From the NCBI RefSeq assembly GCF_964204865.1, contig NC_135257.1:9942151-10006150 (forward strand): DNA of 64,000 bases. Reading direction: 5' to 3'. Positions 1,332 through 35,066 of this stretch are shown here, one piece after another. The DNA is from Styela clava (Eukaryota > Chordata > Ascidiacea > Stolidobranchia > Styelidae). A program made the position numbers and the translations under genes. Within the stretch, counting starts at the first letter, position 1. The number at the start of each line of letters is the position of its first letter. The notes beneath the pieces were generated by a model. That model saw nothing but the letters and a program-made list of their open reading frames with translations. It was not told the DNA's origin and ran no database searches.

Positions 1332-4270
1332 TCAGGACCCGAAGAAGCTGGAAATAAAATGCATTATTATATGAATTATCTGACAGGGGAGAACAGTTCT
1401 TTGAGGATTTACTTTGTATGTTAAGCAATTTGTACCAGGAATTCAATCCATATTTACAGGTAATGCAGACCGTGTGAATGGGGATGAACAGTCATGTTTC
1501 CAATTCCAAAAGTAATAAACTAAACCTATGATATATTTGTCTTATATTTCGATAATTGGGCCGAGGTGCTACTCTTTAAGACTTGTAGTAATTCTGGGTC
1601 AACATGGCCCCAATATTTAACCTTTTTTGAATAAAAATGCTTGAGAGATAAAATTCGAAATCAACAAACATGAATCATGTTTTGCATCCAATATGGTTTT
1701 CTATAAGAGAACAACATGAATGGACTAAAAAAACACTCACATTATCATGCAAAGCATAATGAAGACATTCCAGATCGCAATAACAATTCGGAAATATCGG
1801 AGATTCAATAAAAATTCTCTGATTTTATCCCCTGAAATCATCGAAAAACAGTGCATAAAATTTCTGCAATTTATGAAATCAATGATTCAAAAAGTCAGCA
1901 ATTCTATCTTCCACTATCAAATCATCTAAATCAGGGGTGGCCAACCTATGGCGCATGCGCCAAACGTGGCGCATTGCATGATTAGAGGTGGCGCATTGCA
2001 TCTTTAACCCTTTTCATGCCAAAATTGTTAATTGCACTTGGCTTCTCCACGCCAAGCCGTTTTTTTGCGATTTACATGGTGACTTTTGATTGTACCTAAA
2101 ACCTATTCTTCTTACTCCACGTCGCCCACTTACGGCTTGTTGGAATTCGAAACAACAGGCGATTATCGACGTTAGCTTCTGGATGGACTTTATGACATTC
2201 ATTCTAGACTTTTAGCAAAAATTAGTAAAATTTACTATTTTTTCCCTACTGAAGTAAAAAGTTCAGAACTTCTGAAAAAATAGAAAATCGTCATTTATCA
2301 GCTTGAAACATGGATTTTCCATTGCCCAGACATCCCAAATATCTCCCAATAACCATTGAACAACCTTTTTTCAACCAACCAACAAATTTCTTATAAATCA
2401 ACCCACAACATGCTGAAAATGACCCCTAAATACCACCTTTTCCATCCAAATTTCAAATAACCGTTGTCAACAAAAGCGAAGCTTAAAATCGCTTGCTGTG
2501 ACGCAAGTACTAATCTCGAAGAAGCCCCTGGAGTAAAATCACGCGACGCTAGGCCAAACAGCTGATTAGCAAAGGCCAATTAGAATCGAGGGTAGAGTGG
2601 AGTAGAGATTGATACTAAGGGCCCGTTGTCACAATATTACGCCTAACTTTACTTCTTAATCGTACCTCACATAAAAGAACACCGTGAATGTGCTGCTGGT
2701 AATGGCAATTTGGCAATATACACAGAAAAAATCAAGTTTTTGCAAGAGTTATTTGAAAGTCGTTTTCATGATATTTCAAAAGAAGAAGACTCTATACTTG
2801 CTTTTATAAACCCATTTTCACTTAGTGAACTAACCATAATGAAGATGCCAAGCAATATACAATTGGAACTAATTGACTTGAAAACTCATCCATCATTGAA
2901 AATTCAATTTGATGAGCTTTCTTCAGTCCCAAGTGCATCTGACATGATCAAGTTCTGGCAATCGATACCCCGTGAAAATTTTCCAGAACTGAGAAAATTT
3001 GTCCAGGGTTTTATATGTCGTTTCGGAACGACATATAGATGTGAACAAACATTTTCTGCCATGAAACTAATTAAAAGCAAAGCGAGGTCAAGACTTACAG
3101 ATTTAAATTTGAAGAATGCACTGCTCCTCTCAGTAACAAACTTAACTCCAAGAATAAAAAAACTGGCGAAAGTAAAACAGCAGCAAAAGTCTCATAAAGG
3201 CGGTACTTAAAATTGATCAGTTTTATTCATTATACTTCCTTGCTTAATTTCTATTCATGTGAAGTTGTAAATTGTAAAAACTACATATACGTGTGTATAT
3301 ATGTGTGTGTATCATAGATTTATATAATTTCAACAAGAAGCGGACATTAGGCGTGGGAATACAAGAGATTTACGGCGCATCTGAAACATTATGTTTTAAA
3401 CGTGGCGCATGGTATGTGAAAGGTTGGCCACCCCTGATCTAAATACTCACTCGTTGATGGTTCAGCAGATTCTGATCCAAAAACATGTTCATCTTGACTT
3501 TTCTTCCTAAAAAAAATGAATAGGTCAAATCTTTCAACTTGATTATAACTTTAGGATTTATACATATAAAAAAAACTGAGGATTCATTTTTGCCCATGAA
3601 AAAACTTATTAGGATCAGGGTGAACAGTAGATTTATGTTATACTTGATCGAAAACAGAATACGGTAAGAAAGAAACTAGGTATTACTAAAGGAATGTATT
3701 CATTTCCACTAAAAATGACAAATTTAAACAAGATCAGCTATTCAACAAGTGCCAATCAGGGCTGCAGTATCTGTGGCTGTAAAGTTTTAATAATTTACTC
3801 ACAGTCGAAAATTCAAAACAGCACCGGCATTTGCCATCAAAGTTCTGAAAAAGTATATGTTTCCATTCAGATATTGATATTTCACATAAGAAAAGTTTCA
3901 CGGTCAAGAGAAGATCGAATTGATAATCACATAAAATATTCCAATATCTTGGTATATGAAACAATGAAATATCAAAATTTAAATTTTTTTTCTCAAACAT
4001 AGTTGACATCGTAATCAAAATTCAAGTCAAATAGGGTTCAAAATTCTTATCTGCAAAGACGATTGAAAATTATTCAAGAAACCTTAAATATGTACGCAAT
4101 GATAGGTATTCCATTGAAAGTAGTGAAAATAAAGTGGAAACTTTTGAGGGTAAATATATCAGAAATAGTGGTACAGTAATGTTATATTTATATCATGGCT
4201 AAGAAATAGAACTATTCTAATGAATTAAAAGTAAAGCAACTTACCCAAACAAAAGAATATCAGATATCAT
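1332..4270 (-). CDS. SMIM7: SMIM7, small integral membrane protein 7 (five coding exons)
   Basis: A complete gene found by splicing; no single long frame exists. Coding exons on the minus strand: 4245-4270, 3803-3844, 3451-3506, 1741-1831, 1332-1347. All have GT-AG borders and phases that join (231 nt, 76 residues plus stop; human SMIM7 is 75). The product begins MISDILLFG, continues [14 protein letters not shown], then a polar stretch ending EPST, then [18 protein letters not shown] and a hydrophobic tail ending FFGS. This matches the known family layout: N-terminal hydrophobic segment, short charged loop, C-terminal membrane segment. An in-frame ATG at 4333 would add 21 residues, but an acceptor-like AG at 4293-4294 favours the start at 4270. 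AATAAA lies about ten bases after the stop. The third intron carries a 1.5 kb hAT element. The molecular role of the family is poorly known. Confidence 0.93.
1932..3436. mobile_element. hAT transposon (Buster-type) in SMIM7 intron 3
   Basis: Terminal inverted repeats CAGGGGTGGCCAACCT (1932-1947) and its complement (3421-3436) are perfect over 16 bp and flanked by the 8-bp duplication ATCTAAAT (1924-1931 and 3437-3444). The duplication has TA at its centre, as in Buster-type hATs. Subterminal GGCGCAT motifs recur at both ends. It keeps a plus-strand frame for the C-terminal part of a transposase. At 1.5 kb it is too short to be autonomous. The right target duplication begins immediately after the six-base donor consensus of SMIM7 exon 3. 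Confidence 0.95.
2710..3210 (+). pseudogene. hAT transposase C-terminal fragment
   Basis: A 166-codon open frame inside the 1.5 kb hAT element. Its C-terminal third holds the dimerisation-region signature of ZBED5/FAM200/GTF2IRD2-like hAT transposases: [20 protein letters not shown] followed by [12 protein letters not shown]. The N-terminal BED finger and the catalytic RNase H-like core are absent, so it is a remnant that could not transpose itself. The frame is intact over 500 bp, so the insertion is moderately young or the fragment is retained by chance. Confidence 0.85.
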
Positions 4271-4772
4271 TTTTGTTGGATAAAATAATAGCCTATCATA
4301 GAGAGAATGTAATTCTTTGGAATTAGAATTCATAAAAAAACAATAGATTAAAAATAAAACAGAAGGAATAAATGTGACAAAGTACTGAAGTTAGATCTCT
4401 TAGCTACGACATTTTTCATTTAATTATTGGCTGCAGATGTGGATACAAATATAGGAGTTGAAACATGTGGAAAGTTTTTGTACCTACATAGTAATGTGCA
4501 TGGCTGTACATCTCAAATAAAAACAAAGAGTCATATATTGCTTAATATTGTTACAGTTATAAGTAACCTTGTTCAAATGATGCAAGTCTTTGTCTACTAA
4601 AAATTGCTGAGACTCTTTTTCATTGGTGCATAACAATATAGATTTTCAATTTGTTCATCAATCAAGGAATTCTATGATGCAAGCTAATTTGTCATAGTCT
4701 CATAGATATATTGTTTTGTTCACCATGCTTAAAACTTCAAACTTAATAGTAAAACAGTGAAAATTGGAAGCA

Positions 4773-34487: not shown

Positions 34488-35058
34488 CAGGGGTGTCAAA
34501 CTCATGGGTATTCGAGGGCAGCATTGCATTTTGGGAATTGTGCAAAGGGCCGCAAACACACTTTGATATATTTTGATAATGTATACTTAAAGCATATTTT
34601 AGATAGGTGTAGTTTGTGACATATATATATATATATGTGAAGTAATTAAACAACCGAATGAAGTTTTTTTATTTTCCTAAATTTCAAATGCCATTTGCAT
34701 ATTATTTTCATGCATTTCACTATTATTGCAATTTACTGTATTTATTACAAAAAATCATAAACTTTACTTTCACAGATTGTTTTGAAGCAGGTTTTTTGCT
34801 GATTTAGCTGTACTTGCTGTAACTGCAACAGTTTCATGGTTCGAAGTTGATCTTTAAATTTAGTCATATTGAATGCTGTTCTTATTCTGATTATGTCTAC
34901 TTCTATTGTATTTTTTCATTATACTGATGGAAAAGTGACGAATTGGACAATGATTTCAAAATTTTGAGAAATAACAATTATTGTTAAGCGTTCAAGAGCC
35001 GCATTGAAATTTCTATGGGGCCACATGCGGCCCGCGGGCCGCAAGTTTGACCCACCTG
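34488..35058. mobile_element. hAT MITE, 571 bp, same family as 11464-12649
   Basis: It begins CAGGGGTGTCAAACTCATGG and ends CGGGCCGCAAGTTTGACCCA CCTG. The flanking octamers CTCTAGAA (34480-34487) and GTCTAGAA (35059-35066) differ only at the first base. TA is central. It contains GCGGCCCGCGGGCCGC near the right end and no coding frame. Confidence 0.9.
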
Positions 35059-35066
35059 GTCTAGAA

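Follow-up and report, generated by a model that had tools for sequence, protein, structure and literature searches.

Nine hAT-like insertions, which we call E1 to E9, lie between positions 1924 and 35066 of a 64,000-nucleotide stretch of the Styela clava genome (NC_135257.1, positions 9,942,151 to 10,006,150; hereafter the window). They are very probably insertions of several hAT families whose Buster-like, related transposases joined the elements to target DNA at cuts staggered by 8 bp around a central TA. The families are new, but of a known kind, and the central-TA target rule has already been published. What the window offers is a control for hAT target choice within one genome: six families have the central TA in 61 of 62 identical target-site duplications (TSDs) outside the window, versus 2 of 10 for one abundant family, E2, in the same nucleus. 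This supports the use of a central TA as a label of transposase type where only decayed, non-coding copies remain.

All nine insertions are found where the original prediction, made from the letters of the window alone, had placed them, and the 8-bp duplications that it reported are all present. They are identical in six insertions and agree at 6/8 positions in E3, which had been described as degraded, whereas the imperfect duplications of E7 (6/8) and E9 (7/8) had gone unmentioned. Summed over E1 to E9, flank identity reaches 67/72 at a length of 8, compared with fractions of 0.13–0.37 at lengths 3–7 and 9–13, and random pairs of 8-mers agree at all eight positions with a frequency of 2.5e-5. 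The central TA (positions 4–5) had been announced for every duplication except CTGGATAC, and indeed it is present in 8/9 left flanks (P = 2.6e-8, TA being 8.7% of the window's dinucleotides). Several distinct families were also correctly recognised, although E3 and E9 are oppositely oriented members of one family. The number of families is therefore eight rather than nine; in the window, seven of them have flanks centred on TA and E2 has not. Their ends do not all start with CAGGG, as had been claimed: E2 has CAGTG and CAGTA, E7 has CATCG and CAGCG, the right ends of E3 and E4 read CAGTG and CATGG, the left end of E8 and the right end of E9 read CAGGT, and the decayed left end of E6 reads AAGGA. 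Both the short, imperfect terminal inverted repeats (TIRs) starting with CA(G) and the 8-bp duplications are traits of the hAT superfamily.

Does the central TA hold beyond the window? We searched the window's own genome (G000; 376.6 Mb, 379 contigs, with the window at C9:9942151-10006150) with the window copy of each family as the query, scored 40 first-look candidates per family and took flanks from high-ranking matches. Copies were chosen mostly with both ends aligned and with their flanks unseen at the time of choice, and only identical (8/8) duplications of copies outside the window were counted, for the families E1, E4, E5, E6, E8 and E9. The 90 outside copies of these six families gave the 62 identical duplications, of which all but one match the Buster consensus nnnTAnnn. 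For E4 (2979 candidates; 30 loci if the window copy is counted, both ends being present in 29), 16/16 identical duplications from the 29 loci besides the window copy have the TA, as do 16/16 for E8 (835 candidates; 20 copies fetched), 8/8 for E9 (1175; 10 copies) and 6/6 for E6 (356; 10 copies). E1 (198 candidates; nine copies and one longer copy, L157, fetched) has it in 8/8, which come from six of the nine fetched copies, from L157 and from L028, a 422-bp deletion form with the duplication GACTATAG. The single exception, GTCTGGAC, belongs to E5 (657 candidates; 10 copies), where the count is 7/8. At a looser identity of at least 7/8 the TA is present in 24/25 E4 duplications, window copy included, and under the same 7/8 rule in 8/9 of those of E5. 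Pooling E4, E8 and E9 gives 40 identical TSDs, in which TA stands at the centre 40 times and at any other phase 0–8 times, and the positions beside it are weakly biased to nTCTAGAn (symmetrised T2/A7 62%, C3/G6 42%). Non-identical pairs were dropped for 13/29 copies of E4, 4/20 of E8, 2/10 of E9, 2/10 of E5, 3/9 of E1 and 4/10 of E6. Inspection by eye shows central-TA duplications in L180 and L182, two of the E6 copies excluded in this way, provided that a terminal indel is tolerated; L188, another of them, has a 7/8 pair with TA. The E6 left end, decayed in the window, reads CAGGGGTGGGCACA in 8/10 other copies. One further E8-family copy, with the TSD TTATATAA, was left out of the counts; it lies in L026:805-4712 and is interrupted by a CAGTGGCGGCGCG element that is nested in it and has the TSD CAATTGAT, an arrangement that gives the order of insertion. 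Thus the check that the original prediction had proposed, genome-wide copies and their flanks, bears out both the recurrence of 8-bp duplications with a central TA and a target preference shared by distinct families.

A family-blind scan, based on inverted ends and flank identity only, covered the window and 58 fetched stretches longer than 2 kb, many of them originally retrieved for an E4 copy or a transposase. It returned 42 inverted-end pairs with 8-bp duplications, versus 5, 2, 0 and 0 at 6, 7, 9 and 10 bp. The scan also brought up six further insertions that are centred on TA and have ends of other kinds (L015, L019, L027, L040, L049, L056), the second E1-type copy in L028 and two insertions without TA, in L044 and L054, to which we return below.

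E2 is a natural control for target choice inside the window. Ten copies were taken after 40 of 1521 first-look candidates had been scored, and all ten have identical 8-bp duplications; the scarcity of the central TA among them differs from the six TA families at P ~3e-8 (Fisher). The original prediction had assigned CTGGATAC to the Ac-type target nTnnnnAn, a reading that the other copies do not sustain: 2/11 duplications, window copy included, fit this consensus, with ~1.2 expected by chance (P = 0.33), and the T2/A7 half-sites are present in 11/22 (P = 0.07). A second control, elements with long open transposase frames, has the central TA in 1/11 identical duplications, a biased sample, since its members were picked as the highest-ranking by Pfam score. 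Of the other stretches in this set, the duplication in L021 agrees at 7/8 and lacks the central TA, L010 is ambiguous, L024 was cut too short on one side, L017 has clear ends and no duplication, and no clear ends were seen around the open frame in L009, L019, L020, L023 and L028. The CAGTGGCGGCGCG-ended elements in L022, L025, L026 and L027 have TSDs without TA at positions 4–5 in 4/4 cases. One possible, though rather doubtful, reading is that E2, with its CAGTGATTTCCCTA ends, and the CAGTGGCGGCGCG elements make 8-bp duplications that obey neither the nnnTAnnn nor the nTnnnnAn rule. If so, target choice would divide the hAT groups of one genome into three classes or more, of which the third, perhaps Tip-like, would have no clear consensus.

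Locating full-length partners of the window copies succeeded in part, for E1. Its longer relative L157 (G000:C2:209716-212917, minus strand; 3202 bp) has both E1 ends, a TSD with central TA (GGCTAGAC) and transposase pieces that lie in different frames: a zinc finger (zf-C2H2_12, E = 1.4e-5), a catalytic stretch with blocks that we take to be the DESTD, TDG and RW blocks of hAT transposases, and a hAT dimerisation region (E = 6.7e-7). The DESTD, TDG and RW blocks are presumably GTF2IRD2/ZBED5-like. The window copy of E1 keeps the C-terminal part of the transposase, and this remnant matches the protein pieces of L157; at the junction of the middle and C-terminal parts one open frame runs through in E1 and not in L157, and we therefore regard L157 as broken at this point. 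The zinc finger of E6 is 37% identical to that of L157 over 46 residues (E = 3.7e-6), and a stop-ridden catalytic piece of E5 is 31% identical to that of L157 (E = 5e-8, tblastn); two short E5 protein pieces searched alone gave no Pfam match. In E2, E4, E7, E8 and E9 no recognisable coding part was seen, and for families other than E1 no longer partner was located. The hAT C-terminal dimerisation region, a further superfamily trait, was found for the E1 family only; a search for this domain in the same genome listed 150 scored matches from 1852 candidates. Searches of viral contigs returned no relatives of the E1 piece or of one terminal pattern. Judged by these protein pieces, at least three TA families (E1, E5 and E6) go back to related transposases, and this is the simplest reason for their shared TA preference.

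How might such insertions have arisen? We propose cut-and-paste insertion of several hAT families whose copies, mostly internally deleted, would be mobilised by transposase supplied from elsewhere. The transposases would be of one related type, with an N-terminal C2H2/BED-like zinc finger, a DDE/RW core and the hAT C-terminal dimerisation region; such a transposase would bind the CAG-starting inverted ends and insert them at a break staggered by 8 bp with TA in its middle; filling-in would then leave nnnTAnnn duplications. Each family was probably served by its own transposase or by that of a close relative. From their ends and duplications, E4, E8 and E9 seem to have used the same transposase type; the type that served E7, in which no coding part was seen, is likewise judged from ends and duplication.

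The Ac and Buster groups were reportedly defined by Arensburger in 2011, and the target rule, the ends and the order of domains suggest that the transposases discussed here fall in the Buster group. TcBuster makes the same 8-bp nnnTAnnn duplication (PMC3499496) as the TA families, a likeness in target rule; unlike TcBuster, the window copies have no complete transposase, and the pieces of L157 lie in different frames. Closer in form are the Mar elements of Drosophila willistoni, Buster-type miniature inverted-repeat transposable elements (MITEs) with ends CAG(G/A)GGTAGGC and the TSD nnnTAnnn (PMC3517528). They too are internally deleted hAT copies, and the ends of E6 (CAGGGGTGGGC) and E1 (CAGGGGTGGCC) are close to theirs; Mar, however, is one family in another host, and here there are several unrelated families. 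Transposases of the hAT-6/Charlie8-like kind, related to GTF2IRD2, are described as having a DDE/RW transposase, TIRs and TSDs (PMC10641963), and to that extent, by description only, they resemble the elements here. One source assigns ZBED5 to Buster and other ZBED proteins to Ac (PMC3606216). The Ac/Hermes elements share the 8-bp duplication and the hAT dimerisation domain, but the Hermes target rule nTnnnnAn (PMC10512250) fits only 17/40 of the identical E4, E8 and E9 duplications.

Several observations weigh against the view that related, Buster-like transposases with a central-TA stagger produced these insertions. More than a quarter of the outside copies (28/90) have no identical duplication and stand outside the 61/62 count, and the copies, being best matches mostly with both ends aligned, are not a random sample. 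Ten copies of E7 were fetched (40 scored of 1638 candidates); only one of them showed the left end, without a matching duplication, and in the right flanks, the only usable ones, TA at positions 4–5 is present by eye in 5/10 and absent in 5. The insertions in L044 (1280-2196, CTTAAGAC) and L054 (3003-3317, CTCAAGAC) have identical 8-bp duplications with an AA centre and CAG ends, and the CAGGGGTGGGCAAC ends of the L054 element are much like those of the TA families. The zinc finger of L157 scores 25.1 bits, just under the Pfam cut-off of 27.3, its catalytic piece has no Pfam family match, and sequence searches of PDB gave chance matches only, with no hAT protein among them.

If a preference for central TA also exists in some other hAT group (Tip, for instance, or a Charlie/hAT-6-like branch), the Buster label could be wrong and the mechanism still the same. 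At the naming of Tip its target preference had yet to be studied, which still held in 2014 (PMC3942097), and the catalytic piece of L157 also aligns at ~30% with DUF4371-type transposases of the same genome. Yet the four CAGTGGCGGCGCG elements, whose transposases align with this piece (the DUF4371 domain itself was checked for L025 only), make duplications without the central TA, and both TcBuster and Mar, the latter with CAG ends, are Buster elements that follow the rule, so that we regard another group as rather unlikely. Still less probable is that one transposase mobilised all TA families through similar ends, rather than one per family. The ends do have in common CAG, G5 and a CAA-like block, but the E5 and E6 pieces are only distantly like those of L157 (31% and 37%), and the unequal best-match similarity, from near-complete E1 copies at 97–98% to E7 at 76–83%, makes a single source at one time unlikely. 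Chance, or a selective reading of flanks in the original prediction, to which the three imperfect pairs (two at 6/8, one at 7/8) might lend some weight, is practically negligible, as the rule recurs in copies that were never part of that reading and is missing in E2, the one family that this reading had set apart. Equally negligible is the notion that flanks are shared through regional duplication instead of a choice of TA sites at each insertion: the window does contain a 2.45-kb segmental duplication (53357-55809 and 61564-64000), but the duplications vary between copies, the copies lie on many contigs, and E1 to E10 are all outside the duplicated segment.

We thus retain several hAT families with related, Buster-like transposases as the best explanation, and turn to when and how densely they inserted. 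The best matches of the other window copies show identities of 91–96% for E4, 89–94% for E8 (longer matches), 88–93% for E6, 82–93% for E2 (longer matches), 84–91% for E9 (main matches) and 76–89% for E5 (longer matches), in addition to the values for E7 and for E1 (six near-complete copies) given above; these are best matches and not family averages, and their spread between families speaks against one burst. The claim that the families had been active together in one 33 kb stretch was overstated in this respect, and also with regard to density, which is comparable across a further 223 kb that we fetched around hAT copies, a non-random choice. A hAT hot spot is rejected: the same family-blind scan finds 5 insertions in the 64-kb window versus 15 in those 223 kb, or 9 if the six elements that drove the choice of sequence are left out, and the probability of at least 5 is 0.43 with all 15 and 0.12 with 9. 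The insertion density in the window is not clearly unusual. Compared with the original prediction, the present analysis adds the genome-wide confirmation, the longer E1 partner, the correction for E2 and two corrected duplications.

Table 1. Elements, transposase remnants and flanking duplications in the window.
Feature	Position	Strand	Description
E1	1932..3436	+	hAT element without complete transposase; ends CAGGGGTGGCCAACCT; TIR 17/18, TSD 8/8
E1 target duplication	left 1924..1931, right 3437..3444		ATCTAAAT, both sides identical
E1 transposase C-terminal remnant	2650..3207	+	hAT dimerisation region; Pfam PF05699 (Dimer_Tnp_hAT), E = 9.9e-6
E2	8477..9692	+	hAT-like; ends CAGTGATTTCCCTA; TSD CTGGATAC both sides, 8/8
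E3	11464..12649	-	E9-family copy, in the opposite orientation to E9; duplication degraded, ATCTAGAC/ATCTATTC, 6/8
E4	16933..17374	+	442-bp MITE-like hAT; ends CAGGGGTCGGCAACCT; TSD ATCTAATG, both sides identical
E5	18256..19160	-	hAT without complete transposase; ends CAGGGTCGTCCAACC; TSD GCCTAGTG, both sides identical
E5 decayed catalytic transposase piece	18435-18767	-	stops in frame
E6	20568..21307	-	hAT without complete transposase; left end decayed, right end CAGGGGTGGGCACAC; TSD CTATAGTC, 8/8
E6 zinc-finger transposase piece	20616-21005	-	zf-C2H2_12, E = 6.9e-7
E7	25086..25522	+	older-looking family; right end CAGCGGTTCCCAAACT; duplication GCCTACGC/CCCTACGG, 6/8
E8	26773..27637	+	no transposase seen; ends CAGGGATGGCGAACCW in most fetched copies; TSD ATATATGA both sides
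E9	34488..35058	+	no transposase seen; ends CAGGGGTGTCAAAC in other copies; duplication CTCTAGAA/GTCTAGAA, 7/8
E10	15075..16663	-	truncated E8-family copy; 80.7% identity over 708 bp to E8, right end matching

E10 is a tenth copy in the window, carrying an inserted block of ~0.8 kb, and its sole surviving flank, CCCTAAGG, has the central TA. A second, partly tandem repeat family is common to 7707-8145 and this block (15332-15971). Elsewhere in the genome, twelve E7-type matches lie at G000:C3:2929961-2970243, mostly at a spacing of ~3.75 kb, which suggests a tandem array with an E7-family copy in each unit.

Other repeats in the window include the segmental duplication named above, whose two copies are in direct orientation, 97.3% identical and 8.2 kb apart, the second reaching the window end. 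A direct repeat of ~240 bp (90%; 9884-10117 and 13930-14177) brackets a 3.8-kb stretch, 10124-13933, the own ends of which are mutually inverted (17-18/18 bases), an odd direct-plus-inverted arrangement. At 48784-49190, 3.8 copies of a tandem 52-bp repeat lie beside a GAAAAATTCGCCGCA repeat; this stretch can also be read as a long imperfect inverted repeat. Finally, the genes of the window, which appear animal-like, include one with a TIM21 domain (6235-7023, minus strand) and one with a CCCH zinc finger (4776-5912, minus strand), and at 37248-38039 on the plus strand there is a match to TEADIR3 (TEAD-interacting) slightly below the cut-off, together with a weak WW match.

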